In this document: piece by piece, positions 3,264-20,027 of the stretch
How the letters are laid out: each line of letters begins with the position of its first letter
Position numbering within the stretch: position 1 is the first letter of the stretch
From: Afipia sp.
Lineage (GTDB): Bacteria > Pseudomonadota > Alphaproteobacteria > Rhizobiales > Xanthobacteraceae
Assembly: GCA_024508675.1 (NCBI GenBank)
Contig: JANINQ010000005.1
Location: forward strand, 372,001 to 436,000
Direction of reading: 5' to 3'
DNA length: 64,000 nucleotides
Translations under genes and position numbers: made by a program
Notes under the pieces: model-generated
Seen by the model: only the letters and a program-made list of their open reading frames with translations
Told to the model about the DNA's origin: nothing
Databases searched by the model: none

Positions 3264-4037
3264 TCAGCGTTCGACAAACGCCTTCTCGACCACGAACTCG
3301 CCTGGCTCGCAGTGATTGCCCTCGGTGAATCTTCTGTCGAGCAGCAGCGTGCGTGTGTCCTGGAGCAGCGCCGGGCTCCCGCAGATCATGACGCGGTCAT
3401 GCGCGGCTTCAAGCGGCGCCAGATTCGTGTCGCTGAACAGCTTGCCTGATGTCATCAGGTCGGTGATGCGCCCGCGATTGCGGAACGGATCGCGCGTGAC
3501 CGTCGGATAATAGATCAACTGGTTGCGCACCAGTTCGCCGATCAGGTCGTCCTTCGGCAGATGGTCATTGATCATCTCGCCATAGGCAAGCTCGGCAACA
3601 TGACGGCAACCGTGCAGCAGCACAACCTTCTCGAAACGGTCGTAAGTCTCCGGGTCCTTGATGATGCTCAGGAACGGGGCGAGCCCGGTGCCGGTGCCCA
3701 CCAGATAGAGATTGCGGCCATCTTTCAGGTTGTCGATGACCAGCGTGCCGGTCGCCTTGCGTCCGACGATGATCTGCTCGCCCTCTTTCAGATGCTGGAG
3801 GCGCGAGGTCAGCGGCCCGTCCGGCACCTTGATCGAGAAGAACTCGAGCTTGTCCTCGTAATTCGCGCTCGCCACGCTGTAAGCCCGCAGCAGCGGCTTC
3901 TCACCGACCTTCAGGCCGATCATCGTGAATTCGCCGTTGCGGAAGCGAAAAGACGGGTCGCGGGTGGTGGTGAAGCTGAACAGCGTGTCGGTCCAGTGGT
4001 GGACGCTGAGAACGCTCTCCTGATTGAAATTGCTCAT
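3264..4037 (-). CDS. fpr: Ferredoxin-NADP+ reductase (FAD-binding)
   Basis: A 257-residue flavoprotein that moves electrons between NADPH and ferredoxin or flavodoxin in the cytoplasm. The start at 4037 (MSNFNQESVLSVHHWTDTLF) matches bacterial FPR proteins; upstream in-frame sequence is not family-like. The FAD-binding RAYSVAS motif is at residues 51-57, the NADP-binding GTGTGLAPFLS stretch at about 114-124, and the C-terminal tail ends EFVVEKAFVER, typical of subclass IIA enzymes. It is transcribed divergently from the enamidase gene and shares with it a GTATAC-centred near-palindrome at 4112-4131. By context it may supply reduced ferredoxin to 6-hydroxynicotinate reductase. It could equally be a housekeeping fpr that happens to lie here. 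Confidence 0.92.
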   Translation of the reverse strand: MSNFNQESVLSVHHWTDTLFSFTTTRDPSFRFRNGEFTMIGLKVGEKPLLRAYSVASANYEDKLEFFSIKVPDGPLTSRLQHLKEGEQIIVGRKATGTLVIDNLKDGRNLYLVGTGTGLAPFLSIIKDPETYDRFEKVVLLHGCRHVAELAYGEMINDHLPKDDLIGELVRNQLIYYPTVTRDPFRNRGRITDLMTSGKLFSDTNLAPLEAAHDRVMICGSPALLQDTRTLLLDRRFTEGNHCEPGEFVVEKAFVER

Positions 4038-4111
4038 GTCGCTCGATCCAGTTGGGTGGTCCGGCCGCGGGGCAAAATCAAAAAACGCAGAGACAGATTG
4101 CCTCGCCAAAT

Positions 4112-4131
4112 TTCATTTGTATACTAATGAA
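4112..4131. promoter_or_regulatory. GTATAC-centred operator 1 between fpr and enamidase
   Basis: TTCATTTGTATACTAATGAA is a 20-bp inverted repeat with one mismatched pair, centred on GTATAC. It lies 74 bp upstream of the fpr start and 82 bp upstream of the enamidase start. The same core recurs at 14365-14384 and 14537-14556 in the other divergent promoter region of the nicotinate genes, which supports a shared regulator. Confidence 0.6.
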
Positions 4132-4213
4132 TAATCCAGCTTGATCCCGCCGTCAAGCCGCGCTCAAGTTGGTTCCAGACTGCCGCGAAGGCATTGAACA
4201 GAAGGAACAATCC

Positions 4214-5413
4214 ATGTCCCACGATGCGCCCCAAGCCCCCGCCGGCCCGATCAAGCTGGTCATCCGCAACATCGGCCTGATGCTGAGCGGGGACATGGAC
4301 AAGCCGATCCTGGACGCCGACACTATCGTGGCAGAGAATGGCAGGATCAGCGCCATCGGGCGCGCCAAGGATGTCAACACGGAAGGCGCAACCACCATTG
4401 TTGACGCCAATGGCACGACGGTGACTCCCGGCCTGATCGACAGCCATGTTCACCCGGTAGCGGGCGAATGGACGCCGCGGCAGAATCAGATCGGCTGGAT
4501 CGACAGCTTCCTGCATGGCGGGGTGACCACCATGATCTCGGCAGGCGAAGTCCATATGCCGGGCCGCCCCAAGGACATTGTTGGCGTCAAGGCGATGGCG
4601 ATTTTCGCCCAGCGCGCGTTCGACAATCTACGCCCGGGCGGTGTCAAGGTTCATGCCGGTGCGCCGGTGATCGAACAAGGCATGACGGAAGAGGATTTCA
4701 AGGACATGGCAACGGCCGGCGTCCGCTGGCTTGGCGAAGTCGGGCTCGGCAGCGTCAAGGACGGCCCGACGGCGCGCAAGATGGTCGCCTGGGCACGCAA
4801 GTACGGCATGAACAGCACGATCCATACCGGCGGCCCGTCGATTCCGGGCTCCGGCCTGATTGACGCGGACGTCGTGCTCGAAGCCGACACGGACATTGTC
4901 GGCCACATCAACGGCGGCCACACCGCCCTGCCCGACGGCCAGATCCGCTGCATCTGCGAGGGCTGCAAACGTGGCCTCGAACTGGTCCACAACGGCAATG
5001 AGCGCGCGGCGCTCTACACCCTGCGGCTGGCCCGCGAGATGAAGGAGCTGAATCGCGTGATTCTGGGCACTGACGCGCCGGCCGGATCGGGCGTTCAGCC
5101 TCTCGGCATCCTGCGGATGGTGTCGCTGCTGTCGTCGCTGGGTGACGTGCCGGCGGAGCTCGCCTTCTGCTTCGCGACAGGCAACACCGCGCGGATGCGC
5201 GCGCTGGATTGCGGCATTATCGAAGTCGGCCGCGCGGCAGATTTTGTCATCATGGACAAAGCGCAGCACTCCGCGGGGAAGAACCTACTCGACAGCGTTC
5301 AACTCGGCGACCTGCCCGGCATTGGCATGACCATCATCGACGGCATCGTCCGCACCCAGCGCAGCCGCAACACACCACCGGCCACCAAGGTGCCGGAGGT
5401 CGTTGGACACTAG
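4214..5413 (+). CDS. ena: Enamidase (6-oxo-1,4,5,6-tetrahydronicotinate amidohydrolase)
   Basis: A 399-residue metal-dependent amidohydrolase resembling Eubacterium barkeri enamidase, which opens the ring of 6-oxo-1,4,5,6-tetrahydronicotinate to give 2-formylglutarate and ammonium. Visible features are an N-terminal beta domain, GLIDSHVHPVAGEW with the metal-binding HxH at residues 78-80, later ligand candidates in STIHTGGPS and GHINGGHTALPDG, and the conserved Asp in LGTDAPAGSG. A Cys-rich patch (CICEGCKRG) follows the second His region. The start at 4214 has an AAGGAAC ribosome site 7 bases upstream. Context supports the assignment: 6-hydroxynicotinate reductase and nicotinate dehydrogenase genes are nearby. 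Other cyclic amidohydrolases are possible but fit the neighbourhood less well. Confidence 0.85.
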   Translation: MSHDAPQAPAGPIKLVIRNIGLMLSGDMDKPILDADTIVAENGRISAIGRAKDVNTEGATTIVDANGTTVTPGLIDSHVHPVAGEWTPRQNQIGWIDSFLHGGVTTMISAGEVHMPGRPKDIVGVKAMAIFAQRAFDNLRPGGVKVHAGAPVIEQGMTEEDFKDMATAGVRWLGEVGLGSVKDGPTARKMVAWARKYGMNSTIHTGGPSIPGSGLIDADVVLEADTDIVGHINGGHTALPDGQIRCICEGCKRGLELVHNGNERAALYTLRLAREMKELNRVILGTDAPAGSGVQPLGILRMVSLLSSLGDVPAELAFCFATGNTARMRALDCGIIEVGRAADFVIMDKAQHSAGKNLLDSVQLGDLPGIGMTIIDGIVRTQRSRNTPPATKVPEVVGH

Positions 5414-5420
5414 CGATCAG

Positions 5421-5924
5421 TTAGCGCAGCTTGCTGAGAAGCGCGACGAAAGTGTCGCGCTCCCTGGTGTCCAGTGGCGCAAGCGTTTCTCTTGAAATGG
5501 CCAGCGCATGAGGCGCAGCTTTCTCGGCCATCGCCTGCCCTGCTCGCGTCAGGCTTACCAAAAGCCGGCGACCATCGTCCGGATCGGGACTTGTCTCGGT
5601 GAGGCCTCTTGCCGTCAACCGGTCAATCACCCCCTTGATGGTGGCGACATCCATCGCGGTCAGCCGCCCGAGCTGATTTTGCGAACAGGGTCCGGTTTCG
5701 GTGAGCTTTGCGAGCGCGGCCCATTGCGTCGGCGTCAGGTTGATGCCGATCTCCTTTGCGAAGATCGTCGCATGCCGCTGCCAGACCTGGCGGAGAATGA
5801 ACCCGATCTGATCGTCGAGAACGTATGGCGATTTCGACACCTTTCCGTTTCGCTTTGGCGCGCTTGACTTGGCTGAAGCTGTTACCTTGGCCGCAGCAGC
5901 CTTACTCAGCACGGTCTTGGCCAT
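5421..5924 (-). CDS. MarR-family regulator, candidate nicotinate regulator (NicR-like role)
   Basis: A 167-residue protein with a Lys/Ala-rich N-terminal extension (about residues 1-30) followed by a MarR winged helix-turn-helix: WQRHATIFAKEIGINLTPTQ, then TETGPCSQNQLGRLTAMDVA and the wing TSPDPDDGRRLLVSLT. It is the last gene of the minus-strand operon that starts with 6-hydroxynicotinate reductase and follows livF by 29 bases. It converges with the enamidase gene, ending 7 bases from that gene's stop. In Pseudomonas putida nicotinate degradation is controlled by a MarR-type repressor, NicR, so by analogy this protein probably binds the three GTATAC-centred sites and responds to 6-hydroxynicotinate or a related acid. 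That role is inferred. Confidence 0.82.
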   Translation of the reverse strand: MAKTVLSKAAAAKVTASAKSSAPKRNGKVSKSPYVLDDQIGFILRQVWQRHATIFAKEIGINLTPTQWAALAKLTETGPCSQNQLGRLTAMDVATIKGVIDRLTARGLTETSPDPDDGRRLLVSLTRAGQAMAEKAAPHALAISRETLAPLDTRERDTFVALLSKLR

Positions 5925-5953
5925 GTCCGCTCCCTTACGCTTCGTTCTCGTGT

Positions 5954-6658
5954 CTACACCGCCAGATGTGCGTCACGAATATCCGGACGCGCCTCAAGCT
6001 CGCCCATAGTGCCGCTAAAGCAGATGCGGCCACGCTCGATGATATAGGCGCGATCGGAGATCAGATTGGCAAAGTGCAGATTCTGCTCCGAGACAACGAT
6101 GCTGACGCCTTCCTTCTTCATCGCAAGGATCGCATCCACCATCTGCTCGACAATTTTCGGCGACAGGCCTTCAGACGGTTCATCCAGCAGCACCAATGAA
6201 GGATTTCCCATAAGCGTGCGTGCGATGGTGAGCATCTGCTGTTCGCCGCCGCTCATGCGTCCCCCCATGCGTCCGCGCATTTCGCCAAGATTCGGGAATA
6301 GCGTGAAAAGTTTCTCGCGCGTCCACTGCGGCGCATTGGATCGCGGCGGCTGACGGCCGACCTCGAGATTTTCTTCGACCGTCAGATCCGTAAAGATGCG
6401 GCGCTCCTCGGGCACATACCCGAGACCGTTGCGGACAATGGCATGGGTCGGCTGCTTCGAGACATCCTGCCCCTCGAAGATGATCTGTCCTTCGCGCTGC
6501 TCGACCAGACCGACAATCGAGCGGAAGGTGGTCGATTTTCCCGCGCCGTTACGACCGAGAAGCGCGACGACCTCGCCAGCGCCGACCTCCAGCGCTACAT
6601 CGAACAGGATATGCGCCGGTCCGTAATAGCTGTTCAGTCCCTGAACCTGGAGCTTCAT
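5954..6658 (-). CDS. livF: LIV-type ABC transporter ATPase (LivF)
   Basis: A 234-residue nucleotide-binding protein of the branched-chain amino acid/amide (HAAT) importer class. Walker A is ALLGRNGAGKST, the signature MSGGEQQMLTIARTL, Walker B LVLLDEPSEGLSP, and the switch His region SEQNLHF carries Gln/Asn in place of the usual His, as is normal in LivF. The start overlaps the livG stop by four bases, so the two are translationally coupled. The operon begins with nicotinate-pathway genes, so the importer probably takes up nicotinate or a related carboxylate rather than leucine. That substrate is inferred from context. Confidence 0.9.
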   Translation of the reverse strand: MKLQVQGLNSYYGPAHILFDVALEVGAGEVVALLGRNGAGKSTTFRSIVGLVEQREGQIIFEGQDVSKQPTHAIVRNGLGYVPEERRIFTDLTVEENLEVGRQPPRSNAPQWTREKLFTLFPNLGEMRGRMGGRMSGGEQQMLTIARTLMGNPSLVLLDEPSEGLSPKIVEQMVDAILAMKKEGVSIVVSEQNLHFANLISDRAYIIERGRICFSGTMGELEARPDIRDAHLAV

Positions 6659-7446
6659 GCCGATGCTCCCTCGCGATGGCGCGCGTCGTAAACCAGCCCT
6701 TCGCCGAGATAGATCGCACGGACTTGCGGATTGCGCCGAACCTCCTCGGGCGATCCTTCCGCGATCAGCGTGCCGCGATTGAGCACCAGAATGCGGTCGG
6801 CATGCTCGAACACCACATCCATGTCGTGTTCGGTGAACAGAACTCCGATCGCCTTCTCCCGCGCAATGCGCGCGGTGAGTTTCATCAGTTCAACACGTTC
6901 GCGTGGCGCCATACCGGCGGTCGGCTCATCCATCAAAAGCAGCTTGGGCTGGTTGGCGAGAGCGATGGCAAGTTCCAGGCGCTTCAGATCCCCATAGGCG
7001 AGTTCGCCGCATGGCCGCTCGGCGTAACCGCTCATGCCGACGAGATCGAGTAACCGGTCGGCTTCGTCGCGCTCGAATTCCGGTGCCGAGCGCCACATGT
7101 TGAAGAGCCGGGAATTGTAGGACACCAGCGGAACCTGCACATTCTCGCGCACCGTCATGGTCGGGAATGTCGCAGTGATCTGGAATGTCCGTCCCACGCC
7201 AAGCCGCCAGATCGCGCGCGGCTTCTGGCCTGTCGTATCCCGGCCCAGCAGATGAATGCGGCCGCTGTCAGGCACGTTCTGGCCATTCAGCATATCGAAG
7301 CAAGTGCTCTTGCCTGCGCCATTGGGACCGATCAGTGCGAGGATTTCGCCCGCAGCCAGCGAGAACGACACGCCACGCACGGCGTGCACCCCGCCATAGG
7401 ATTTGGTCAGGCCTTCAACAGCAAGCAGTGTGGGTGCGGCACTCAT
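6655..7446 (-). CDS. livG: LIV-type ABC transporter ATPase (LivG)
   Basis: A 263-residue ATPase of the HAAT importer class. It shows Walker A (ALIGPNGAGKSTCFDMLNG), the LivG-typical VGRTFQ motif, the signature region ELAYGDLKRLELAIALA (a diverged LSGG, common in LivG), Walker B LLLMDEPTAGMAP and switch His in LFTEHDMDVVF. Its start overlaps the LivH-LivM fusion stop by four bases. It would pair with LivF below the membrane to drive uptake by the fused permease. Substrate specificity is not encoded here; linkage to the nicotinate operon points to a pyridine carboxylate. Confidence 0.9.
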   Translation of the reverse strand: MSAAPTLLAVEGLTKSYGGVHAVRGVSFSLAAGEILALIGPNGAGKSTCFDMLNGQNVPDSGRIHLLGRDTTGQKPRAIWRLGVGRTFQITATFPTMTVRENVQVPLVSYNSRLFNMWRSAPEFERDEADRLLDLVGMSGYAERPCGELAYGDLKRLELAIALANQPKLLLMDEPTAGMAPRERVELMKLTARIAREKAIGVLFTEHDMDVVFEHADRILVLNRGTLIAEGSPEEVRRNPQVRAIYLGEGLVYDARHREGASA

Positions 7447-9329
7447 TCTGCAGTCTCGATTCGCGATGCCAGAATGGCAGATTTCGACGATTGCGATTCA
7501 CGCCGCGCGCGCAGCGACTCGATCATGCCGACAATGCCCTTCGGGAAAGCGACCACAATCAACACGACAATCGCGCCCAGCACGAGCTTGGACCAGTCTG
7601 TCTGACTGACCAGCCAGATGTTCAATGCCTTGAAGACGATGGCACCGACGACCGCACCGGAAACCGTCTCAATGCCGCCGAGCAGCACCATGACCAGCGC
7701 ATCGACCGACAGCGGGATACCCAGGCTGTCAGGGAATACGCTGCCCTTGAGATAAGCGAACAATGCCCCCGCGACGCCCGCCGCCGTGCCTGCGATCACG
7801 AAGGCTGTCCATTGAATACGCTTGCCATCGATGCCAATTGCCTCGCTGCGCAGGATGGAATCGCGCGTCGCCCGCAGGGCATAACCGAACGGCGAGAACA
7901 CGATAATGCGGAGCACGATGACCATCAGCGTCGCAACTCCGAGCGACAGCCAATAGAAGCTTGCCGGCCCGGCGGCCCACGCCGCAGGCCAGACACCCAA
8001 AATACCATTGTCGCCGCCGGTCACACCAACCCATTGGAATGCGATGGACCAGACGATCTGTGCGAAGGCCAGTGTCAGCATTGCGAAATAGACGCCGGAA
8101 AGCTGAACCGCGAAGAATCCAAAGATCGCCGCGCCCATCAGACCGAGCAATGGTCCGAGCAGCAGGCATGCGATCATCGGTAGGCCCGCAGCTTTCGCGA
8201 AGAAAGCAACGCCGTAAGCGCCGAGGCCGAAATAGGCGGCATGGCCAAAGGATGCGAGGCCCCCCGCCGACATCAGGAAGTGTAGGCTGGCGGCAAAAAT
8301 CACGAAGATCGCAATTTCAGCGCCGACGGTGAGCGCATAGTTGCCGCCAAACAATGGCAATGCTGCCGCAACGATCAACGTCGCCAGCGCAGCAAGCCGC
8401 TCGTTCATCGTCAGCGGACGCCACGGCCGGACGGTGAGACCCGGTGTCTTGCGCGCAGGCGCTTCGGGCTTTCCGAACAGACCCCACGGCCGGACAATCA
8501 AGACCGCCGCCATGACGAGGAACACGAGAATGATCGAGATTTTCGGAAATATCAGGATGCCGAAAGCATTCAGTTCGGAAACCAGAACGGCGGCAACGAA
8601 CGCGCCGGTGATACTGCCGAGGCCGCCGATCACGACGACCACGAAAACGTCCACGATGATGCGCAGGTCCATGGCGTGATGCACGGCATCGCGCGGAATC
8701 TGCAACGCGCCGCCGAGCGCAGCCAGAAAAACGCCGACAGCGAAAACGCTGGTGAACAGCCATTTTTGATTAACGCCGAGCGCCGCCACCATGTCGCGAT
8801 CCTGCGTCGCGGCGCGCACGAGAATGCCCCAGCGCGTGCGGCGGAACAGCAACCACAAGGCACCAAGCACCACCGGGCCGAGCACAATCAGGAACAGGTC
8901 GTAAGATGGAATGTTCTGGCCGAAAAAATCGACAGCTCCCCGAAATCCCGGAGCGCGGCGGCCGACAAGATCATCCGGTCCCCAGATCAGAACCACAATG
9001 TCCTCGACCATCAGGGTCAAGCCGAAGGTTGCAAGAAGCTGGAACAGTTCAGGCGATTTATAGATTCGCCGCAGCAGGACCATCTCGACCAGCACACCGA
9101 GCAGCGCAACCACCAGCGCCGCGATGACAATGCCGCCCCAGAATCCGAGCGTCCCCGACAGCCGCTCCGTCAGCGTGAACGCGACGTAGGCGCCGAGCAT
9201 GTAGAATGCACCGTGAGCAAAATTCACGATCCGCGTCACGCCGAAGATGATCGATAGCCCTGACGCCACGAGGAACAGCGACGCTGCACTGGCAAGGCCG
9301 GTCAGGAACTGGACAAAATAGAAGCTCAT
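7443..9329 (-). CDS. Fused LIV-type permease (LivH-LivM)
   Basis: A 628-residue integral membrane protein joining the two permeases that are usually separate. The N-terminal half (about residues 1-300) is LivH-like, with GLSIIFGVTRIVNFAHGAFYMLG and the conserved loop FVVVVIGGLGSITGA. The C-terminal half (about 310-628) is LivM-like, with the start of its helices at ALPLFGGNYALTVG, SFGHAAYFGLGAYG and the coupling loop VMVLLGGIETVSG. Both EAA-like loops are present, so one polypeptide could form the whole translocation path. It sits between the binding-protein gene and livG in the nicotinate operon. The fusion should be real because the frame is open throughout and both halves keep their motifs. 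Confidence 0.9.
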   Translation of the reverse strand: MSFYFVQFLTGLASAASLFLVASGLSIIFGVTRIVNFAHGAFYMLGAYVAFTLTERLSGTLGFWGGIVIAALVVALLGVLVEMVLLRRIYKSPELFQLLATFGLTLMVEDIVVLIWGPDDLVGRRAPGFRGAVDFFGQNIPSYDLFLIVLGPVVLGALWLLFRRTRWGILVRAATQDRDMVAALGVNQKWLFTSVFAVGVFLAALGGALQIPRDAVHHAMDLRIIVDVFVVVVIGGLGSITGAFVAAVLVSELNAFGILIFPKISIILVFLVMAAVLIVRPWGLFGKPEAPARKTPGLTVRPWRPLTMNERLAALATLIVAAALPLFGGNYALTVGAEIAIFVIFAASLHFLMSAGGLASFGHAAYFGLGAYGVAFFAKAAGLPMIACLLLGPLLGLMGAAIFGFFAVQLSGVYFAMLTLAFAQIVWSIAFQWVGVTGGDNGILGVWPAAWAAGPASFYWLSLGVATLMVIVLRIIVFSPFGYALRATRDSILRSEAIGIDGKRIQWTAFVIAGTAAGVAGALFAYLKGSVFPDSLGIPLSVDALVMVLLGGIETVSGAVVGAIVFKALNIWLVSQTDWSKLVLGAIVVLIVVAFPKGIVGMIESLRARRESQSSKSAILASRIETAE

Positions 9330-9363
9330 AGACGATCCAGGACTAGAGAAGGCTTGAGATGCC

Positions 9364-9384: not shown

Positions 9385-9395
9385 AGCCGTTCTCA

Positions 9396-10628
9396 TCAAT
9401 CCTTCGGACGCATCTTTTCGACTTCCGCATCCTTCGGCAGAAAGTCTTCGCCCTTGCGGTACGACGTGTCGACCATCACGCCCTTGCCGTCCTTAAGGGC
9501 AGTCTTGCCGACATAGGCTCCGAGAGTCGACTGGTGATCGATCTTGCGGAAGGTGATCTGGCCGAACGGAGAGGACATCGACAGTCCTTCCGCCGCGGCG
9601 ATCAGCTTTTCCGGATCGGTCGAGTTGGCCTTGATGAGGATCGCAGCCGCAGCCTTGATCGTCTGATAGCCGACAATCGAGCCGAGCCTCGGATAATCGT
9701 TGAACTTGCCCCGATAGGCCTTCAGGAAGGCATCATGTTCGGGCGTCTTGATGCTGTACCAGGGATAACCGGTGACGATCCAGCCTGACGGCGTTTCCTC
9801 CTTCAGCGGGTCGAGATACTCCGGCTCGCCGGTGAGGAAGCTTACCACCGCACGATCCTTGAACAGACCGCGGGTGTTGCCTTCACGCACGAACTTCACA
9901 AGATCCGCGCCGAAGGTCACATTGAGAATGGCTTCAGGATTGGAATTTGCCAGCGCCTGCACGATCGGACCCGCATCGATCTTGCCTTGTGGCGGCCACT
10001 GCTCGTCGACCCACTGGATGTCAGGCCGTTTCTCGGACAGCAGCTTCTTGAACACGGCAACCGCCGACTGACCGTACTCATAGTTCGGCGCGAGAGTCGC
10101 CCAGCGCTTGGCGGGAAGCTTCGCGGCCTCCTCCACCAGCATCGCAGCCTGCATGTAATTCGAGGGCCGCAGACGGAAGGTATAGCGATTGCCCTTCGAC
10201 CAGGTGATCGCGTCAGTCAGAGGCTCCGCTGCAAGGAAGAATACCTTCTTCTGTTTTGCGAAGTCGCTCACCGCAAGGCCGATATTGGACAGGAACGTTC
10301 CGGTCAGCATCGCGACGTTCTCGTTCGACACCAGCTCGTTCGCAGCCGTCTGGGCATCAGCAGGTTTTCCGCTGTCATCCTTGGACACCACAACAAGCTT
10401 CTTGCCGTTGATGCCGCCCGCTGCGTTGACTTCTTCAACCGCGAGCTGCCAGCCCTTGCGATAGGGTTCGGTAAAAGCAGGCAGCAGCGAGTAGCTGTTG
10501 ATTTCGCCGATCTTGATTTCGCCGCTCTGTGCCATGGCTGTTGTCGCCAGGGCCGAACCGGCCAGACCAAGACCCGCGGCGAGCGCAAGCCCAGACAGAC
10601 TGCCGAAAAGACATTTGCTTCGTTGCAT
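9396..10628 (-). CDS. LIV-type periplasmic substrate-binding protein
   Basis: A 410-residue periplasmic binding protein of the LivK/HAAT type. The start at 10628 (MQRSKCLFGSLSGLALAAGLG) has a GGAGG site five bases upstream; two earlier in-frame ATGs (10640, 10655) lack one. A Sec signal peptide ends near ATTAMAQSGE. The mature domain shows KIGEINSYSLLPAFTEPYRKGWQLAVEEVN, then GGINGKKLVVVSKDDSGKPAD and ANELVSNENVAMLTG, the usual Peripla_BP_6 elements. It follows two PF06684-type genes by 106 bases in the operon that starts with 6-hydroxynicotinate reductase, so a nicotinate-like ligand is likely but unproven. Confidence 0.9.
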   Translation of the reverse strand: MQRSKCLFGSLSGLALAAGLGLAGSALATTAMAQSGEIKIGEINSYSLLPAFTEPYRKGWQLAVEEVNAAGGINGKKLVVVSKDDSGKPADAQTAANELVSNENVAMLTGTFLSNIGLAVSDFAKQKKVFFLAAEPLTDAITWSKGNRYTFRLRPSNYMQAAMLVEEAAKLPAKRWATLAPNYEYGQSAVAVFKKLLSEKRPDIQWVDEQWPPQGKIDAGPIVQALANSNPEAILNVTFGADLVKFVREGNTRGLFKDRAVVSFLTGEPEYLDPLKEETPSGWIVTGYPWYSIKTPEHDAFLKAYRGKFNDYPRLGSIVGYQTIKAAAAILIKANSTDPEKLIAAAEGLSMSSPFGQITFRKIDHQSTLGAYVGKTALKDGKGVMVDTSYRKGEDFLPKDAEVEKMRPKD

Positions 10629-10734
10629 CCCAACCTCCATTGTTACCGGGGACATATGTCCCGTTCACTTCCCGTCCGCTCCTTATTCCGGTGAAGCGAT
10701 TCGGCATTCTTTCGCACCAAATGCAGACAGACAG

Positions 10735-11900: not shown

Positions 11901-12819
11901 GCATCAGGCTTTCGGTTTTCATTTGGATCCTGTCTCGCGGAAGCGGCGATTTGCGATCGATGTTCTTCAGCGCAACGATATACGTTTCGCCTTGCAAGTG
12001 AAGCGCAGCACCATTGATCAGGTTGGCCGCGACCAACCGCCGCGCACGATTCGCACCTGTCTCAAGAGCGTCAACTATGTCACGAGATGACAATCGCCCG
12101 ACATCGCGCGTCACAAGACGGGCGCCGAGATCGCTGTCAGGCTGAATATCGTAAGCCGGACAACGGACCACCGCGGGATGGCCCGGCAGATCGATCGCAT
12201 TGGCGATGATTGTCGCGGCAGCGTCCGCCTGCGCCGCCGTGCGCGCCAGGACGGTAACAGCATCGGCAATGCCGAGTGAAAAGCTGCGTCCGCGCCAGCC
12301 ACTGGTCGCGACACCGCGCATGGCATCTCCTGCAGCAATCCTCGTTTTCCCGATCAGGCCGGGCATATCGGGACGGTCCACAAGCCCGACCGTAAAGGAT
12401 TGGTCCTCACCAAGATGCAACGCGATATCGCCGCCATTGTTGACATAGGCCCGATCCAGATCAGCGGCCTGCACCATGGCGCCGAGAATTTCCTCTGCAA
12501 CGGCACCCGCCACAGCAGCCATCGGCGTGATGAAGTCATTCGCAGCAAAGGGAGCAACCGCATTGTGCATCCGGCACGCGACATCCCCCTTCAGGAAACA
12601 CCCATCCGCCCGGGCCGCCTTCCGCAGTTCAGGAAGCTCCTCGCAGAGTTCGTCGAGCAATCCGGTGAAGCGGCGAGTTGCAGCTTCATAAGCTGCAAGG
12701 ACCATCTCCAGAGCGCCATGCGCCTCCACGATCAGATCGATCGGGCCGTCCTGCATGTGAAGCCGTCTGCCATCCGCCAGCCATCCGATCTGCGGGAGCC
12801 GTGTCAGGCGCGATCTCAT
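11893..12819 (-). CDS. UPF0280 family protein (ApbE-superfamily-like)
   Basis: A 308-residue protein matching UPF0280/COG2122, a group related to ApbE flavin transferases. Recognisable stretches are ARADGCFLKGDVACRMHNAVAPFA, FITPMAAVAGAVAEEILGAM, AYVNNGGDIALHLGEDQSFTVGLV, and the late SGWRGRSFSLGIADAVTVLA, where the TSGxxxRSFSLGxADAVTV pattern is diagnostic. The N-terminus (about residues 1-30) carries a WLADGRRLHMQDGPIDL segment. Its ATG overlaps the TGA of 6-hydroxynicotinate reductase (ATGA), tight translational coupling. The E. barkeri reductase is, as I recall, an iron-sulfur flavoprotein with covalently held flavin. This protein may therefore install that cofactor, a hypothesis from context and fold relation only. 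Confidence 0.8.
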   Translation of the reverse strand: MRSRLTRLPQIGWLADGRRLHMQDGPIDLIVEAHGALEMVLAAYEAATRRFTGLLDELCEELPELRKAARADGCFLKGDVACRMHNAVAPFAANDFITPMAAVAGAVAEEILGAMVQAADLDRAYVNNGGDIALHLGEDQSFTVGLVDRPDMPGLIGKTRIAAGDAMRGVATSGWRGRSFSLGIADAVTVLARTAAQADAAATIIANAIDLPGHPAVVRCPAYDIQPDSDLGARLVTRDVGRLSSRDIVDALETGANRARRLVAANLINGAALHLQGETYIVALKNIDRKSPLPRDRIQMKTESLMHA

Positions 12820-14285
12820 GGGCGCGATCTCGGTTCTGACTGTTGCCGGGGCAGTTGGCGGACTTCCGTACTGCCATTCAATGACGCCAATGGCCGCACA
12901 TGATCCATGTGGCCGCCGAGCGCCGCATAGTCGGAGAGCCGCAAGGTGAATTCGATCGGCGCGACCAGCGCTGGTGTCGGCACATAACCAAAGGCGCCTT
13001 GTGGCACCTCCGTCACGTCGACCATGAACGTGATGCCGCCACCGGGCCACACGTAGACCGGCGCGCCGCCACAGGTCACTGACGTCAGCGCATCCTTGAC
13101 CGAGCGCGTCAGCCGAACGGGATTATCGGTGACGCCCGCCCTGAGCGATCCGCCTGCTCCGCCCATGAACAGAACCGTGCACAAGGCCGGTTCGCAGTTT
13201 TCCTGAATCCTCTCCACCGAGAATTTGAGATCGGCGGGCATCTCTTTCTCGACGGGCTTCAACGCATCATCGAGTTCAAAGTACGCGGCATGTTCGCCTG
13301 TGGTGCTGACCATCATCATTCGCAAACCGGGGTGTGCCGTCTTGGGATCGAACGGACCCAGCACGGACAGCGGATCAGAGATATTCGTGCCGCCCCAACC
13401 TGTGCCAGGCTCGGCCACCTGGAAATAGCGGCCCGGGGTGGAGCGGCGGCCTTTCATCTTGATTCCGGTATCGGGAATATCGAGCAGCTTGCCGGCCTGA
13501 TGCTCAGACAAAACGCCGGTGATGTGATCGTCCACCACGACAACCTCATCGACCTTGCCATGCCATTGCTTGGCGAACATGCCGATGGTTGCAGAGCCGC
13601 AACCGACGCGCATCCGCTCCTCGGTCACGCCGTTCACAATCGGCGGATAGCCGGCTTGCACGACAACCGTCGCGCCGCCGTCAATTGTGAGTTCAACGGG
13701 CTTGCCGTTGGACAGGTCCATCAGCGCGTCACAGGTGACGCGCCCCTCCTTCTTCGATCCGCCGGTCAGATGATGCACGCCGCCGAGGGAGAGCATCTGC
13801 GAGCCGTATTCGCCTGTCGTGACATGTCCGACCGCTTCGCCCTGCACGCGGACTATCGCGGTTTCGGGGCCAAGATAGCGGTCGGTGTCGATCTTCACCT
13901 TCACACCGCAATAACTGAAGATGCCTTCGGTCACCACGGTGACCATGTCGACGCCATCGACCTCGGACGACACGATAAAAGGCGCGGGCTTGTAGTCTGG
14001 ATAGGTAGTGCCTGCGCCGATGGCTGTAACGAAAACGCCCGGCTCGTGAACGATCTTTCCGTCCCAGTCGCCGCCGGTCTGAAACGGAACAAGCCGACCG
14101 CCATGAGACACCGTGCGCTCAAGAACGATATGCGGATCGACGCGAACGAGTTCGCCATTGTGATTTGCATAGCGGTCGCACGCACCCGCCGCGCCCGGCT
14201 TGATGTAGCACATCACGGGGCATGCATCGCAGCGGATCTTGTCCGCGCTGCCGGCCGCTGCAACAGAGGTCATTTCAGTCGACAT
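12816..14285 (-). CDS. hnr: 6-hydroxynicotinate reductase (iron-sulfur flavoprotein)
   Basis: A 489-residue protein resembling the E. barkeri enzyme that reduces 6-hydroxynicotinate to 6-oxo-1,4,5,6-tetrahydronicotinate using low-potential electrons. The N-terminus carries a four-Cys cluster motif, C19xxC22xxxC26 with C36 (RCDACPVMCYIKPGAAGAC), suited to a [4Fe-4S] centre. Downstream are many Gly-rich segments (GSATIGMFAKQWHG, FMGGAGGSLRAGVTDNP) and GRYFQVAEPGTGWGGTNISDP, which the family shares. The ATG at 14285 is preferred to an in-frame TTG at 14291. It is the first gene of the nine-gene operon and lies 80 bp downstream of operator 2. It is normally found in anaerobes; here it pairs with an aerobic NicAB hydroxylase. 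Confidence 0.85.
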   Translation of the reverse strand: MSTEMTSVAAAGSADKIRCDACPVMCYIKPGAAGACDRYANHNGELVRVDPHIVLERTVSHGGRLVPFQTGGDWDGKIVHEPGVFVTAIGAGTTYPDYKPAPFIVSSEVDGVDMVTVVTEGIFSYCGVKVKIDTDRYLGPETAIVRVQGEAVGHVTTGEYGSQMLSLGGVHHLTGGSKKEGRVTCDALMDLSNGKPVELTIDGGATVVVQAGYPPIVNGVTEERMRVGCGSATIGMFAKQWHGKVDEVVVVDDHITGVLSEHQAGKLLDIPDTGIKMKGRRSTPGRYFQVAEPGTGWGGTNISDPLSVLGPFDPKTAHPGLRMMMVSTTGEHAAYFELDDALKPVEKEMPADLKFSVERIQENCEPALCTVLFMGGAGGSLRAGVTDNPVRLTRSVKDALTSVTCGGAPVYVWPGGGITFMVDVTEVPQGAFGYVPTPALVAPIEFTLRLSDYAALGGHMDHVRPLASLNGSTEVRQLPRQQSEPRSRP

Positions 14286-14364
14286 GACCAAACCCGCGTG
14301 AACCGACCTGAACTGACATGCGGCAATTTCCCCGCGGAAAATCTTTAATCAGTCAGCATCGGCA

Positions 14365-14384
14365 TTTGTTCGTATACGAATGAT
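14365..14384. promoter_or_regulatory. GTATAC-centred operator 2 upstream of hnr
   Basis: TTTGTTCGTATACGAATGAT contains a perfect 12-bp palindrome, TTCGTATACGAA (14369-14380). Its right half matches operator 1 (GTATAC, one variable base, AATGA). It ends 80 bp from the hnr start, where a repressor could block that promoter. Confidence 0.6.
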
Positions 14385-14536
14385 GGTGCGCGCAGTCCCC
14401 GAAGCTGTCAAGCGCCGTCGCGCGCGAAAGCCGGAACTGCCGAATAAAACCTCAATTGCCTCCTCTCCGTGTTCACAAAGCGTGCAATGCATCATCGCAC
14501 GGCGACAACGAATATGGGCCGCACATCTCGCGCTTG

Positions 14537-14556
14537 CACGTTTGTATACAAACGGT
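14537..14556. promoter_or_regulatory. GTATAC-centred operator 3 upstream of nicA
   Basis: CGTTTGTATACAAACG (14539-14554) is a perfect 16-bp palindrome with the same TTxGTATACxAA core as operators 1 and 2. It lies 57 bp upstream of the nicA start. A MarR or a GntR/FadR-type protein could bind such a site; operon logic favours the MarR gene at 5421-5924. Confidence 0.62.
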
Positions 14557-14613
14557 ATCGTTGCTTCGAAGCATTTGCCGGCCTTTTGCAGCGCAGCAGA
14601 TCGGACTGTGACG

Positions 14614-15102
14614 ATGACCGTAACGCAAGCGACGATCAGCCTGACGGTAAACGGCAGGACTCATGATATCGACGCTGCGCCCGATACCGCATTGCTTTAC
14701 GTCCTCCGCAACGACCTTGAACTGAACGGTCCGAAGTATGGCTGCGGACTTGGTGAGTGCGGCGCCTGCACTGTGATCATCGATGGCGTCGCGGCACGCT
14801 CCTGTGTCATTCCGGTCAGCGGCTGCGAGCAACGCGATGTTCTGACGCTTGAGGGTCTTGGCTCCCGCCACCACCCCGATCCCGTTCAGGCGGCCTTCAT
14901 TGAAGAACAGGCCGCCCAGTGCGGCTACTGCCTCAATGGCATGATCATGACCACGAAGGCTCTGCTGATGCAAAATCCGCAGCCTTCGGAAACGGAAGTC
15001 CGGCAGGCTCTGCAATACAACCTGTGCCGGTGCGGCGCCCACGTGGAAATCCTGCGTGCGGTGATGCGTGCAGCAGGACGTGCCATCGAGGAACGCGAGT
15101 GA
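14614..15102 (+). CDS. nicA: Nicotinate dehydrogenase small subunit, [2Fe-2S] (NicA)
   Basis: A 162-residue iron-sulfur subunit of the xanthine-oxidase family. The first cluster is bound by the plant-ferredoxin-type motif CGLGECGAC plus a downstream Cys (ARSC), the second by CGYC and CRCG in the four-helix C-terminal domain. Start MTVTQATISLTVNGR at 14614 sets the usual length; the longer open frame from 14380 has no family-like sequence. With NicB it forms the two-component nicotinate hydroxylase described in Pseudomonas putida, passing electrons from the molybdenum site to cytochrome c. The stop overlaps the nicB start (TGATG). Operator 3 lies upstream. Other small subunits (isoquinoline or aldehyde oxidoreductases) look alike, so the assignment rests on the nicotinate context. 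Confidence 0.85.
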   Translation: MTVTQATISLTVNGRTHDIDAAPDTALLYVLRNDLELNGPKYGCGLGECGACTVIIDGVAARSCVIPVSGCEQRDVLTLEGLGSRHHPDPVQAAFIEEQAAQCGYCLNGMIMTTKALLMQNPQPSETEVRQALQYNLCRCGAHVEILRAVMRAAGRAIEERE

Positions 15103-18100
15103 TGGCGAAGGACCTGCAGGAAAGCGAAAGACCATCTGCCTTCGGATCGCTCTCCATTGTTCGCCCTGCCGTCTCCAGTGCCCACAAATCGGGCTTCGAA
15201 ACCTTCATCAGGATCGATGCGAACGGCACGATCACCGCATTCAATGGCCATGTCGATCTCGGAACAGGAATCCGTACAGCACTCGGACAAATCGTCGCGG
15301 AGGAACTCGACGTTTCATTCGCGCGTATTATCGTCGTGCTTGGCGATACATCGCGCGTCCCCAATCAGGGCGCGACCATTGCCAGCGAGACCATCCAGAT
15401 CACAGCGGTGCCGCTGCGCAAGGCGGCCGCGCAGGCGCGCCATTTCCTGCTCGCGCGTGCCGCCGAGCGGCTTGATCTTTCCGCAACCGATCTGTCGATA
15501 GAAGATGGTCTGATCCGAGGACACGACAATCGCAGCGTCAGTTACGGAGAACTAATCGGAGACGACACCATCCGGCTAGAGCTGAGTGACGATGTCGAGG
15601 TCAAGGCCGTCGATTCCTACAAGATCGTCGGTCAATCGATTCCCCGCGTTGATCTGCCTGCCAAAGCCACCGGCGAGCTGGTCTATGTGCATGACGTCCG
15701 CGTTCCCGGCATGCTGCACGGGCGCGTGGTCCGCCCACCCTATGCAGGCGTTGATGCCGGGAGTTTCGTCGGGACGAGCCTGATCGCTGTCGACGAATCC
15801 TCGGTCCAGAACATCCCTGGCCTGGTGGCTGTGGTGCAGATTGGCGATTTCGTTGGTGTCGTGGCCGAGCGCGAGGAAAACGCAATCAGGGCCGCCAGCC
15901 AGCTCAAGGTCGCATGGAAGCTAACACCAACACAGCCGAGCCTTGAGGACCTTGAGAATGCCTTGCGCGCCAATCCGAGCAGGCCGCGCACGCTCATCGA
16001 CAAGGGAGAAGTCGACGACGCCATTGCAAATGCCGCCAAGCCGATGAAACGCACTTACGTCTGGCCGTACCAGATGCATGCGTCGATCGGGCCATCATGT
16101 TCGGTCGCGGATGTTCAGGACGGCGTTGTGCGCGTGTGGTCCGGTACGCAGAACCCGCACATTCTCAGATCCGACCTCGCGTTGCTGCTGGCACTTCCTG
16201 AATCGCAGATCGACGTGGTCCGGATGGAAGCCGCAGGCTGCTACGGCCGCAACTGCGCTGACGACGTTTCGGCGGACGCGGTGCTGTTGTCCCGCGCCGT
16301 AGGCCGGCCCGTGCGCGTGCAGCTAACGCGGGAGCAGGAGCACGAATGGGAGCCTAAAGGCACCGCGCAGTTGATCGACGTCAACGGCGGCCTTGATGCC
16401 GAGGGCAATGTCGCGGCTTATGATTTTGCGACGCGCTACCCGTCGAATGGAGCACCGACTCTGGCGCTGCTGTTGACCGGCACCGTCACGCCCGTGCCGG
16501 CGGTTTTTGAAATGGGCGATCGCACGGCGATCCCACCTTATGATTACGACGCGATGCGGGTGGTCGCTCACGACATGCCGCCGATCGTTCGCGCATCGTG
16601 GTTTCGCGGCGTCTCCGCCCTCCCGAATACATTCGCGCATGAGTCTTATATCGACGAACTCGCAACGGAAGCCGGCGTCGATCCGATCGAATACAGGCTG
16701 CGATATCTGAAAGACCCTCGCGCTGTCGATCTGGTCAAGGCCGTCGCAACGCGCGCCGAATGGACGCCTCGCCCGGTCTGGAAGGAGCCGGAAGCGGAAG
16801 GCGACGTGGTGCGCGGACGCGGCTTCGCCTACGCGCTTTATGTCCACAGCAAGTTTCCCGGTTATGGCGCGGCATGGTCCGCCTGGATCGCTGACGTCGC
16901 GGTCAACAAGTCGACCGGCGACGTCAGCGTGACCCGCGTGGTGGCCGGTCAGGATTCCGGGCTGATGATTAACCCGGAGGGGGTGCGCCACCAGATTCAT
17001 GGCAACGTGATTCAATCCGCAAGCCGCGCCTTGATGGAAGAAGTCTCGTTTGACCGCACGACCGTCGCGAGCCGCGAATGGGGCGCCTATCCCATCATCA
17101 AGTTTCCGGATGTTCCGAAGATCGATGTGCTGATGCTGCCGCGTCAGGATCAGCCGCCGCTCGGCGTGGGCGAGTCCGCGTCGGTGCCGAGCGCCGCTGC
17201 GATTGCAAATGCCATCTTCGATGCGACCGGCGTTCGCTTCCGGGAGCTTCCGCTGACGCCGGAACGTATCCTTGCCGGATTGAACGGCGGGAAAGCGTTC
17301 GAGCCGAAGGCATTGCCGAAAGCCGGGATCAAACAACAGATACCGATCGAGGAAACTCCAAATCCTTTCGTCAAGCGCCGCGGCACAATCGCGAGCGTCG
17401 CCGCAGCCTGCGCAGCCGCCGTCGGCATCGTCGCGGCTGTTCTGCCGTGGCGCCCGATCCCGCCCATCACGCGCCCGGACGCGTCCACTTACTCGGCGGC
17501 AACAATCGCCAAAGGACAGCAGCTTGCAGCGCTGGGAAACTGCGCGGGCTGCCACACCGACATCAACGGGGTCATCAATGCGGGCGGACGCGCACTCGAG
17601 ACGCCTTTCGGCATCGTCTACAGCACCAACATCACGCCCGATCCGGAGACCGGCATCGGCGCATGGTCATATCCGGCCTTCGAGCGCGCCATGCGCGAAG
17701 GCATCCATCGCGACGGGCGGCATATCTACCCGGCTTTTCCCTACAATCACTTCGCCAGGACAACAGACGCGGACCTTCAGGCGCTTTATGCTTACCTGAT
17801 GGCGCAGCCTGCTGTCCGCGCTGCGAACCGCGAAACCGCATTGTCATTCCCCTTCAACATCCGCCCGCTGATGGCGGGATGGAATGCATTGTTTCACAAA
17901 CCGGAAACCTTCGAAGCCGACCCAGCCCGGTCAGAGATATGGAATCGCGGGGCCTATCTGGTGGAGAGCCTCGGCCATTGCGGGGCATGCCATACACCCC
18001 GGAACGCACTTGGCGCGGAGCAAGACGCGCGCGCCTATCTTGCCGGTGGGGTCGCGGACGGCTGGGAAGCACCTTCGCTCACCTCGCTGTCACAGGCGCC

Positions 18101-18671
18101 GATCCCATGGACCGAGGACGAACTGTTCACCTATCTACGAACAGGCGCCTCCCGCTTCCATGGCGTCGCAGCGGGACCGATGGCGCCAGTCGTCAAGGAG
18201 CTGTCGGCGGTGCCTGACAGCGACATCCGCGCCATGGCGGTTTACCTTGCGTCCTTCAATGAGGCGAAAATAGCCCCGGCCGCTCAGGAAGCCCTGGCAA
18301 CGCAGCTTGAAACCGCCACCAGCGTGAAGACGCGATCCGCCTCACCTCTTGGGGCTCGCATCTATGACGGCGCCTGCGCAGTCTGCCATCAGGTCGGCGG
18401 CCCTGTTCTGTTCGGCAGCAGACCGTCGCTGGCGCTGAACAGCAACCTGCACAGCACGATGCCCGACAACCTCATTCAGGTTATTTTGCACGGCATCGAC
18501 CAGCCGGTATCCAGCGATCTCGGCTACATGCCGGGTTTCAGGAATAGTCTTAACGACGAACAGGTCGCAGAGTTGGTTTCATATCTGCGGCGGCAATTCG
18601 CGCCGGACAAGGCTCCCTGGACCGATGTTGCTGCCACCGTCAGCCGGATTCGGCGCGTTGCGGGGCCATAA
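15102..18671 (+). CDS. nicB: Nicotinate dehydrogenase large subunit: Mo-cofactor domain fused to tri-haem cytochrome c (NicB)
   Basis: A 1189-residue fusion, nearly the length of P. putida NicB. Residues about 1-740 form the molybdopterin domain: FIRIDANGTITAFNGHVDLGTGIRTALGQIVAEEL, GQDSGLMINPEGVRHQIHGN, and PPLGVGESASVPSA with the catalytic Glu at about 691. A hydrophobic segment at about 760-780 (VAAACAAAVGIVAAVLPW) probably anchors it to the membrane. Three CxxCH haem sites follow at about 814, 960 and 1092 (CAGCH, CGACH, CAVCH). It hydroxylates nicotinate at C6 with water and hands electrons to the respiratory chain through the haems. How the haem part reaches the periplasm without a cleavable signal is not evident. 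The membrane anchor may orient it. Confidence 0.88.
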   Translation: MAKDLQESERPSAFGSLSIVRPAVSSAHKSGFETFIRIDANGTITAFNGHVDLGTGIRTALGQIVAEELDVSFARIIVVLGDTSRVPNQGATIASETIQITAVPLRKAAAQARHFLLARAAERLDLSATDLSIEDGLIRGHDNRSVSYGELIGDDTIRLELSDDVEVKAVDSYKIVGQSIPRVDLPAKATGELVYVHDVRVPGMLHGRVVRPPYAGVDAGSFVGTSLIAVDESSVQNIPGLVAVVQIGDFVGVVAEREENAIRAASQLKVAWKLTPTQPSLEDLENALRANPSRPRTLIDKGEVDDAIANAAKPMKRTYVWPYQMHASIGPSCSVADVQDGVVRVWSGTQNPHILRSDLALLLALPESQIDVVRMEAAGCYGRNCADDVSADAVLLSRAVGRPVRVQLTREQEHEWEPKGTAQLIDVNGGLDAEGNVAAYDFATRYPSNGAPTLALLLTGTVTPVPAVFEMGDRTAIPPYDYDAMRVVAHDMPPIVRASWFRGVSALPNTFAHESYIDELATEAGVDPIEYRLRYLKDPRAVDLVKAVATRAEWTPRPVWKEPEAEGDVVRGRGFAYALYVHSKFPGYGAAWSAWIADVAVNKSTGDVSVTRVVAGQDSGLMINPEGVRHQIHGNVIQSASRALMEEVSFDRTTVASREWGAYPIIKFPDVPKIDVLMLPRQDQPPLGVGESASVPSAAAIANAIFDATGVRFRELPLTPERILAGLNGGKAFEPKALPKAGIKQQIPIEETPNPFVKRRGTIASVAAACAAAVGIVAAVLPWRPIPPITRPDASTYSAATIAKGQQLAALGNCAGCHTDINGVINAGGRALETPFGIVYSTNITPDPETGIGAWSYPAFERAMREGIHRDGRHIYPAFPYNHFARTTDADLQALYAYLMAQPAVRAANRETALSFPFNIRPLMAGWNALFHKPETFEADPARSEIWNRGAYLVESLGHCGACHTPRNALGAEQDARAYLAGGVADGWEAPSLTSLSQAPIPWTEDELFTYLRTGASRFHGVAAGPMAPVVKELSAVPDSDIRAMAVYLASFNEAKIAPAAQEALATQLETATSVKTRSASPLGARIYDGACAVCHQVGGPVLFGSRPSLALNSNLHSTMPDNLIQVILHGIDQPVSSDLGYMPGFRNSLNDEQVAELVSYLRRQFAPDKAPWTDVAATVSRIRRVAGP

Positions 18672-18722
18672 AATCGTTCCGGATGGCTGGTTGCCTGCCG
18701 GGGAGCCGGATATGATCCAGCC

Positions 18723-20027
18723 ATGACTGTTACAGACATTGCTTCGCGAACCTATAATCATGGCTGGCGGCTCGACCCCATCGTGCGCAGCCTGCTCGAT
18801 ACCGACTTCTACAAGCTCCTGATGCTTCAGATGATCCGGAGGTTCTATCCGGACGAGCATGTGACGTTCTCAGTGATCAACCGCACTCACCATGTCCGCC
18901 TCGGCGACGTGATCGACGAGGGAGAGCTTCGCGCCCAGCTCGACCATGCGCGCACGGTTCGGTTCAGCAAGAAGGAATTGATCTGGCTGGCCGGTAACAC
19001 GTTCTACGGCAAGACCCAGATGTTCTCGCCGGATTTCATCAGCTGGCTCGCGACATTTCAGCTTCCGGAATATGAACTGCACACGGTTGACGGGCAGTAT
19101 GAGCTACATTTCCATGGACCATGGACCCACACCACCATGTGGGAAATTCCCGCCCTTGCCATCATCAACGAGCTGCGCTCGCGGCAGGCCATGAAGGGCC
19201 AGGGCCGGTTCGTACTCGACGTTCTCTATGCGCGCGCCAAGGCCAAGCTCTGGACCAAGGTCGAACGGCTGCGCAAACTCGAAGGTCTTCGGCTGTCGGA
19301 CTTCGGAACGCGCCGGCGGCATGGCTTTCTGTGGCAACGCTGGTGCGTCGAAGCCGTCAAGGAAGGCCTCGGTCCGGCATTCACCGGCACCTCCAACGTG
19401 CTTCTGGCCATGGACAACGATCTGGAAGCGATCGGCACCAACGCGCATGAACTGCCGATGGTCGCAGCGGCCCTGGCCAAAGATGACAGCGAGCTGCGAT
19501 GGGCTCCCTATCTGATCCTCGATCAGTGGCGCCAGACCTATGACGGAAATCTTCTGATCGCCCTGCCCGATGCGTTTGGCACCAAGGCCTTTCTGCGGGA
19601 TGCACCGGAATGGGTCGCCGACTGGACCGGATTCCGGCCGGACAGCGCACCACCTATTTCTGCCGGCGAAGAAATCATCGCATGGTGGAAGGAAAAGGGC
19701 CGCAATCCGAAAGAGAAACTCCTGATCTTTTCCGACGGCATGGATGTCGGCTCAATCGAGGAAACGCATCACCATTTTGCCGGGCGGGTCCGGACCAGTT
19801 TTGGCTGGGGCACCAACCTCACCAACGACTTCATCGGATGCGCGCCGGACGGGACCGCCGATCTCAATCCGATCTCGCTGGTGTGCAAGGTCACAGCCGT
19901 GAACGGAAAACCCGCGGTCAAGCTTTCAGATAATCCCGAAAAAGCAACCGGCAGCCCGACCGAAATCGCACGCTATCTACGTGTGTTCGGCAATGCAGGC
20001 CGTGTCCGCGCCGCCGTCCACGTTTAG
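18723..20027 (+). CDS. pncB: Nicotinate phosphoribosyltransferase
   Basis: A 434-residue enzyme converting nicotinate, PRPP and ATP to nicotinate mononucleotide in NAD salvage. Family motifs are clear: [14 protein letters not shown] near residue 25, the [12 protein letters not shown] stretch near 200, [19 protein letters not shown] (auto-phosphorylated His region), [17 protein letters not shown] and [11 protein letters not shown]. It starts 51 bases after nicB on the same strand, so it is likely co-transcribed with nicAB. That puts salvage and breakdown of the same substrate under one promoter. It could instead have its own promoter in the short gap, but none is obvious. Confidence 0.95.

Follow-up and report, generated by a model that had tools for sequence, protein, structure and literature searches.

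The question raised by this locus is by which route nicotinate is degraded in a bacterium that encodes a NicAB-type nicotinate hydroxylase together with a 6-hydroxynicotinate reductase (Hnr) and an enamidase. The genes form an island at positions 3264-20027 of a 64,000-nucleotide stretch of DNA from the soil bacterium Afipia sp. (contig C5:372001-436000, the whole of which is called the window below), from a 4.4-Mb genome whose assembly is listed as 99.99% complete. The gene identities, the conserved linkage, the co-occurrence of genes across genomes and the shared palindromes together suggest that the island is very probably the regulon with which an Afipia-like bacterium degrades nicotinate by the reductive, Azorhizobium-type route. 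The cluster and its pathway assignment are already known, as the same cluster was described in A. caulinodans, B. japonicum USDA110, R. palustris HaA2 and strain SG-6C, and was assigned to a route via 1,4,5,6-tetrahydro-6-oxonicotinate and glutarate (Shettigar et al. 2012, PMC3511419). The window agrees with that description in having Hnr, the genes of the first three steps, a transporter and two conserved unknown proteins together, and it comes from the same bacterial group; the passages of that paper that were compared, with the legend of Fig. 4, revealed no difference from it. The parts of the paper that were compared contain no treatment of the regulator sites, of the co-occurrence of UPF0280 with Hnr and of DUF1185 with the enamidase, or of an alternative HyuAB ring-opener.

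The initial annotation had placed NicA, a NicB with three haem sites, an Hnr with a C19/C22/C26/C36 cluster and an enamidase in one island, and all four are indeed present as open reading frames. The island also contains genes beyond that list, which are fpr, a MarR regulator, a Liv-type adenosine triphosphate (ATP)-binding cassette (ABC) transporter, two DUF1185 genes, UPF0280 and a nicotinate phosphoribosyltransferase. Each named gene is an open reading frame at the place given here, with its start and stop codons checked, and the order from left to right is as follows:

3264..4037, minus strand: fpr, ferredoxin-NADP(+) reductase (PDB 6rr3, E=1e-115)
4214..5413, plus strand: ena, enamidase, assigned by homology to ring opening and deamination of 1,4,5,6-tetrahydro-6-oxonicotinate (PDB 2vun)
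5421..5924, minus strand: MarR regulator of the BpsR kind (6PCP, BpsR, E=1e-25)
5954..6658, minus strand: LivF-like ATPase of a putative nicotinate ABC transporter
6655..7446, minus strand: LivG-like ATPase
7443..9329, minus strand: fused LivH-LivM permease
9396..10655, minus strand: periplasmic substrate-binding protein (PF13458, E=1.7e-66)
10735..11319, minus strand: DUF1185/PF06684 type 1 (AAs1; PDB 2QTP, E=3e-85)
11316..11900, minus strand: DUF1185/PF06684 type 2 (AAs2; by clade placement and genome co-occurrence)
11893..12819, minus strand: UPF0280 protein of the ApbE superfamily (NF003322, 412.9 bits against a cut-off of 290; 2o34, E=1.9e-7)
12816..14285, minus strand: hnr, 6-hydroxynicotinate reductase with an N-terminal Cys cluster (several homologues on plasmids bear this annotation)
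14614..15102, plus strand: nicA, 2Fe-2S small subunit of nicotinate hydroxylase (Fer2 and Fer2_2 domains)
15102..18671, plus strand: nicB, molybdopterin subunit with three haem c sites (MoCoBD_1, MoCoBD_2 and cytochrome c domains)
18723..20027, plus strand: pncB, nicotinate phosphoribosyltransferase of the salvage branch (domain match)

The claim of the initial annotation that the island is the genetic form of the Azorhizobium route is supported by the first three steps, each of which has a well-supported gene. The Fer2 and Fer2_2 domains of NicA, and the MoCoBD_1/2 domains and three CxxCH motifs of NicB, fit the definition of the two-component nicotinate hydroxylase NicAB, in which a small subunit with two [2Fe-2S] clusters is joined by a large molybdopterin subunit with a C-terminal three-haem cytochrome. 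Since the NicB of P. putida normally carries three haem sites, the NicB encoded here is not unusual in this respect. NicAB would hydroxylate nicotinate at C6 to give 6-hydroxynicotinate. For the second step, an alignment of 42 sequences showed conservation of at least 97% for each of the Hnr residues C19, C22, C26 and C36, as well as C126, C185, C229 and C364, so that Hnr contains a conserved Cys cluster that may bind iron-sulfur (Fe-S). Hnr had no match in Pfam or NCBIfam, and its AlphaFold model, built with 25 sequences of which 24 were relatives at 85-96% identity, had a mean predicted local distance difference test score of 32.9. The Hnr of E. barkeri contains flavin and Fe-S. For the third step, the ena product matched the crystallised E. 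barkeri enamidase 2VUN with E=3e-113; the match spans positions 29-410 in the longer reading frame and residues 3-384 of the 386-residue chain, and the second-best PDB match was far behind (7.6e-06).

The association of the island genes is not due to chance, because the same order recurs in relatives. The window Hnr shares 96% identity with its Afipia massiliensis counterpart. Of the 538 Hnr relatives found, the best 80, which come mostly from Afipia and Bradyrhizobium, were fetched with a 10-kb flank. These 80 loci contained UPF0280 (79/80), NicA (77/80) and NicB (73/80), and each DUF1185 query matched 78 of them, often with both queries on one gene. PncB (47/80), the enamidase (40/80) and Fpr (34/80) were found less often, with counts limited by the flank and by contig ends, and in the three loci where NicA is missing the sequence before Hnr is no longer than about 500 bases. 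Within the window's family, 35 of 119 genomes encode Hnr and 38 have a NicB match with E 1e-250 or better (a partial match in G402 and G367). All 35 Hnr-positive genomes are also NicB-positive, in 33 of them on the same contig at a distance of 200-4635 bp, and three genomes (G365, G372, G404) have NicB without Hnr. The pncB gene directly follows nicB in the same direction, which makes nicotinate salvage and breakdown adjacent. Next to the island, at 20331-24778, the window encodes a GntR regulator, an amidase and an oligopeptide-type ABC ATPase, found together in 3 of the 80 relatives' stretches (L013, L014, L015).

In the route that these genes suggest, nicotinate would enter the cell by the Liv-type ABC transporter, and NicAB would make 6-hydroxynicotinate, its three haems handing the electrons on in the direction of a respiratory oxidase. 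Together with UPF0280, its constant partner, Hnr would reduce 6-hydroxynicotinate to 1,4,5,6-tetrahydro-6-oxonicotinate, probably with ferredoxin reduced by Fpr, and the enamidase would then open the ring and free ammonia, giving 2-formylglutarate, with DUF1185 type 1 probably acting at or after this stage. PncB would divert some nicotinate into nicotinamide adenine dinucleotide, and the BpsR-like MarR protein would probably repress the divergent units until 6-hydroxynicotinate appears. The later conversion to glutarate is stated in the published description of the cluster (PMC3511419). The substrates, the path of the electrons, the repression and what UPF0280 and DUF1185 do in the route are inferred. 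Since Hnr is accompanied by several hydroxylases and ring-openers in other genomes, the substrate could vary between lineages, and in strain SG-6C 6-chloronicotinate enters this route (PMC3511419). It is nevertheless improbable that the island serves to degrade another N-heterocycle, such as 6-chloronicotinate or a differently substituted nicotinate, with nicotinate being incidental. The gene directly after nicB encodes PncB, which uses nicotinate, NicAB is a full-length relative (60-62%) of enzymes encoded beside NicC/NicX-type genes on Rhizobium and Azospirillum plasmids, the enamidase closely resembles its E. barkeri counterpart, and the MarR protein keeps most of the 6-hydroxynicotinate-binding residues of BpsR, all of which argue for nicotinate.

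The same plasmids show that NicAB can also serve the oxidative branch, and it could be asked if nicotinate is mainly degraded by a NicC/NicX-type branch encoded elsewhere in the genome, with Hnr and the enamidase forming a side route. On two of them (L271 in Rhizobium, L272 in Azospirillum) the NicB relatives, 60-62% identical over their full length, are accompanied by the oxidative nic branch, with no Hnr annotated in the stretch. The initial annotation had seen no NicC/NicD/NicF branch in the window, and a search of the window with eight NicC/D/E/F/X proteins gave no match at E 1e-3, while the NicB control matched. It had also regarded a functional nicC elsewhere as a threat to its reading. 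When NicC and NicX from the Azospirillum plasmid nic cluster were used as queries, the host genome contained no match to NicX and no NicC orthologue (best match 33% identity). In the controls, the match to 5EOW (E=1e-208) confirmed that the query used for NicC is a genuine one; it is 71% identical to its counterpart in the Rhizobium nic cluster, and the NicX pair from these two different orders is 46% identical (E=2.5e-100). Hence, a main flux through the oxidative branch is very improbable, and the reductive route is the preferred reading.

The regulation of the island was examined by a pattern search and by comparison with the relatives. The palindrome TTNGTATACNAA is present in both divergent promoter regions, with one copy between fpr and ena and two between hnr and nicA, as the following operator-like sites:

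4116..4127, no strand: operator-like palindrome TTTGTATACTAA between fpr and ena (GTATAC core in 29 of 35 relatives' ena-fpr regions)
14369..14380, no strand: operator-like palindrome TTCGTATACGAA on the hnr side (pattern search and relatives)
14541..14552, no strand: operator-like palindrome TTTGTATACAAA on the nicA side (pattern search and relatives)

The search pattern TNNGTATACNNA had exactly three matches in the window, with 0.12 expected, and none of 100 shuffles reached three. At least one GTATAC core was also found in 73 of 76 relatives' nicA-hnr gaps. Because the palindromes are shared and their cores are kept, the divergent units most likely form one regulon. The residues of BpsR that hold 6-hydroxynicotinate are Tyr15, His23, Arg26 and His32 (PMC6837509), and the MarR protein, which matches BpsR (6PCP) with E=1e-25, keeps three of these four contacts as Y34, R45 and H51. 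We infer that this protein binds the TTNGTATACNAA sites.

To see how far the parts of the island belong together, a class sample of 289 alphaproteobacterial genomes was searched; only the best candidates were scored (two per genome for NicB and up to 5, 6, 8 or 11 for the others), so that misses are possible. Hnr was found in 44 of the 289 genomes, and the genomes with UPF0280 (E 1e-10 or better) are precisely these 44. The two genes adjoin in 42 of the 44 loci, the window included, and in the other two genomes (G087, G231) Hnr lies at a contig end with UPF0280 on another contig. In the window, the ATG start of UPF0280 overlaps the hnr stop codon (ATGA). At one locus (L161, genome G028) Hnr is split into two pieces that overlap, which may reflect a broken copy or an error in sequencing. 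The motifs N-GGDiA, AtSG and AD-AAT of UPF0280, conserved in 40 sequences, correspond to the GGD-type, A-T-S-G and D-x-x-x-T motifs with known roles in the ApbE superfamily, to which UPF0280 is assigned by these motifs and by its weak match to 2o34 (E=1.9e-7). It may have a flavin-installing or a subunit role for Hnr; inspection of the Hnr alignment by eye found no clear ApbE-type flavinylation site. A literature search, with most subscription journals outside its coverage, found nothing that mentions UPF0280.

The ring-opening step differed between the Hnr-positive genomes. A close enamidase (at least 68% identity) was present in 18 of the 44, and in one of the 245 others (G082). In the 26 Hnr-positive genomes without it, HyuA of the hydantoinase/oxoprolinase family (56-100% identical to the query from G281) was encoded in the fetched Hnr stretch of 16; when the remaining 10 were searched whole, 9 had HyuA at 64-68% and none was found in G226, a 70%-complete genome. 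No such HyuA was found in any of the 14 enamidase-positive genomes searched whole (best match 45%), a search that left out four such genomes (G065, G197, G210, G231). The resulting distribution, 25 of 26 without a close enamidase versus 0 of 14 with it, has a Fisher value of 6e-10, uncorrected for descent or for post hoc thresholds. The thresholds of 68% for the enamidase, 65% for full-length DUF1185 type 1 and 56% for HyuA were chosen after the tables had been seen; the score gap at the threshold is wide for the enamidase (596 to 332 bits) and narrow for DUF1185 type 1 (265 to 240 bits). HyuA/HyuB hydantoinase-like genes lie near Hnr at L145:11475-15263 and at its relatives L127, L132, L142, L268 and L269, all from genomes without a close enamidase, and G104 has both HyuA (59%) and a distant enamidase-like gene (40%). 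These data suggest that HyuAB is a probable replacement for the enamidase as the ring-opener, and its reaction is read as ATP-dependent. Two other candidates for an alternative ring-opener, a putative cyclase (PF04199) and a Rieske oxygenase, were dropped, being found in only 3 and 8 of 43 loci, respectively. The literature search described above found nothing joining nicotinate, hydantoinase and 6-hydroxynicotinic.

The first step also varied. A flavin adenine dinucleotide (FAD)-linked hydroxylase, consisting of a FAD_binding_5/CO_deh_flav_C subunit and a fused FeS-Mo subunit, precedes Hnr on its own strand in 39 of the 43 class loci other than the window, with the matched parts within 0.8 kb (within 0.4 kb in 37); three loci show the large subunit only within the stretch. 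The exceptions are G093, G041, G210 and G104. Among the Hnr-positive class genomes from other families than that of the window, for each of which two NicB candidates were scored, none had a match with E 1e-250 or better. A Neorhizobium plasmid combines NicB, Fpr, Hnr and HyuAB. Because Hnr and UPF0280 co-occur while the hydroxylases and ring-openers are swapped, the Hnr-UPF0280 pair appears to be a constant core around which the first and third steps can be exchanged. The electrons for Hnr are probably supplied by Fpr via ferredoxin. By its PDB match Fpr is a typical ferredoxin-NADP reductase, and it is also encoded beside the enamidase on a Sulfitobacter plasmid and beside NicB in Neorhizobium. 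Genes of a 2-oxoacid:ferredoxin oxidoreductase lie near Hnr at L142, L145, L131 and L158 (genomes G187, G281, G210 and G104), and both this enzyme and Fpr would supply reduced ferredoxin to Hnr.

The two DUF1185 paralogues of the window are 50% identical and fall into two separate clades of the tree. Full-length type 1 (at least 65% identity) was found in 19 of the 289 class genomes, which are the same 19 that encode a close enamidase, including the Hnr-free G082, and which span 13 family labels. Within the 44 Hnr-positive genomes, type 1 was present in 18 of 18 with a close enamidase versus 0 of 26 without it. Type 2, defined as closer to the second copy of the window, was found in 29 of the 289 genomes, all Hnr-positive; with 14 of 18 enamidase-positive genomes versus 15 of 26 others it showed no clear association with the enamidase (p=0.21; the Fisher values for co-occurrence ignore shared descent). 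Type 1 and the enamidase occur together even where their genes are apart (G197, G082), and type 1 sits with the enamidase rather than with Hnr in G007, G185, G279, G065 and G001. Ten relatives' loci examined closely have both types (4) or type 1 alone (6).

A strict rule that DUF1185 type 1 occurs only with the enamidase has exceptions. Genes of the type 1 clade are present without a close enamidase in G080 (67%) and G195 (63%), both with a shorter match and the latter with one stop, and in G104 (57%), so that the enamidase is present in 19 of 22 type 1 genomes when these are counted; in addition, the Neorhizobium plasmid has a 65% type 1 gene beside HyuAB with no enamidase in the stretch seen. 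Because these four exceptions carry HyuAB, the probable place of type 1 is at or after ring opening, in a step that both sorts of opener share. Its activity could, as a guess, be 2-formylglutarate decarboxylation or an enamine/aldehyde step. TgnF, which was called homologous to the DUF1185-like HcdD, is cited as stimulating aldehyde oxidation in trigonelline breakdown, in a paper whose own attempts with HcdD failed (PMC7913881). Among eight distant enamidase-like genes (38-44%), three have a DUF1185 neighbor (G060, G202, G210) and five have none beside them. At L234, L240 and L241 distant enamidase-like genes (40-44%) each adjoin a DUF1185 gene, perhaps as part of another lactam pathway.

Some of these data could also be explained if UPF0280 and DUF1185 were passengers of the transporter operon with no part in the pathway. 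Of the 94 DUF1185 sequences in the tree, 31 bear neither nic label (Hnr or enamidase), among them L242 and L246, which branch with type 2, and some such genes lie beside Liv transporters (L245, L254). A close type 2 gene is lacking in most of the 80 relatives' loci, the type 1 clade genes of G080, G195 and G104 have no close enamidase, and a connection with amino-acid metabolism was proposed when the DUF1185 structure was described (PMC2954203). This explanation is nevertheless unlikely, given that Hnr and UPF0280 are in the same 44 genomes, that the close enamidase and full-length type 1 are in the same 19 even where the genes are apart, and that three of the eight distant enamidase-like genes directly adjoin a DUF1185 gene.

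Several observations weigh against the assignment of the island to the reductive nicotinate route. No gene of decarboxylation or glutarate formation was identified in the island, and the genome was not searched for them. As Hnr is present in 26 of the 44 class genomes without a close enamidase, Hnr alone is no proof of the exact route. Its likeness to the E. barkeri Hnr rests on the published figure for the SG-6C protein, which is 42% identical to the latter (PMC3511419). None of the stretches fetched around Hnr in the 43 other class genomes showed Fpr, and the electron donor is therefore not fixed. In the MarR protein, F42 replaces His23, one of the four ligand residues of BpsR.

With the E. 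barkeri nicotinate fermentation cluster, the window shares the Hnr and enamidase steps, which were discovered in this oxygen-free fermenter and are joined here to a first step linked to oxygen. E. barkeri reportedly uses a FAD-linked nicotinate dehydrogenase, in contrast to NicAB with its haems in the window, and continues to methyleneglutarate chemistry. The nic clusters (NicAB-CDEFX) of P. putida, Rhizobium and Azospirillum have the NicAB hydroxylase and a MarR regulator in common with the window, while the host genome differs from them in having neither a NicX match nor a NicC orthologue. The loci of other Alphaproteobacteria share the Hnr-UPF0280 core, and many also have DUF1185, the Liv transporter and MarR; they differ in having the FAD and fused FeS-Mo subunits in place of NicAB (39/43) and HyuA in place of the close enamidase (25/43 genomes). 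The literature search found nothing on the Hnr/UPF0280, enamidase/DUF1185, HyuA or FAD-hydroxylase patterns. A joint reading of these patterns is put forward tentatively, at slightly less than an even chance: Hnr and UPF0280 would be one unit, in which UPF0280 is a flavin-installing ApbE-type maturase or a second reductase subunit; DUF1185 type 1 would be the missing enzyme acting on the ring-opening product; and most of the sampled route-bearing Alphaproteobacteria would use the ATP-dependent HyuAB for the enamidase and the FAD-linked hydroxylase for NicAB.

As the pathway itself is already in print, it brings little surprise, and the comparison around the island could matter more. It connects two families of unknown function, UPF0280 and the structurally solved DUF1185, with particular steps in the breakdown of vitamin B3, and it predicts a second, ATP-dependent opening of the reduced ring. 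The shared operator-like site makes the regulon easily testable.

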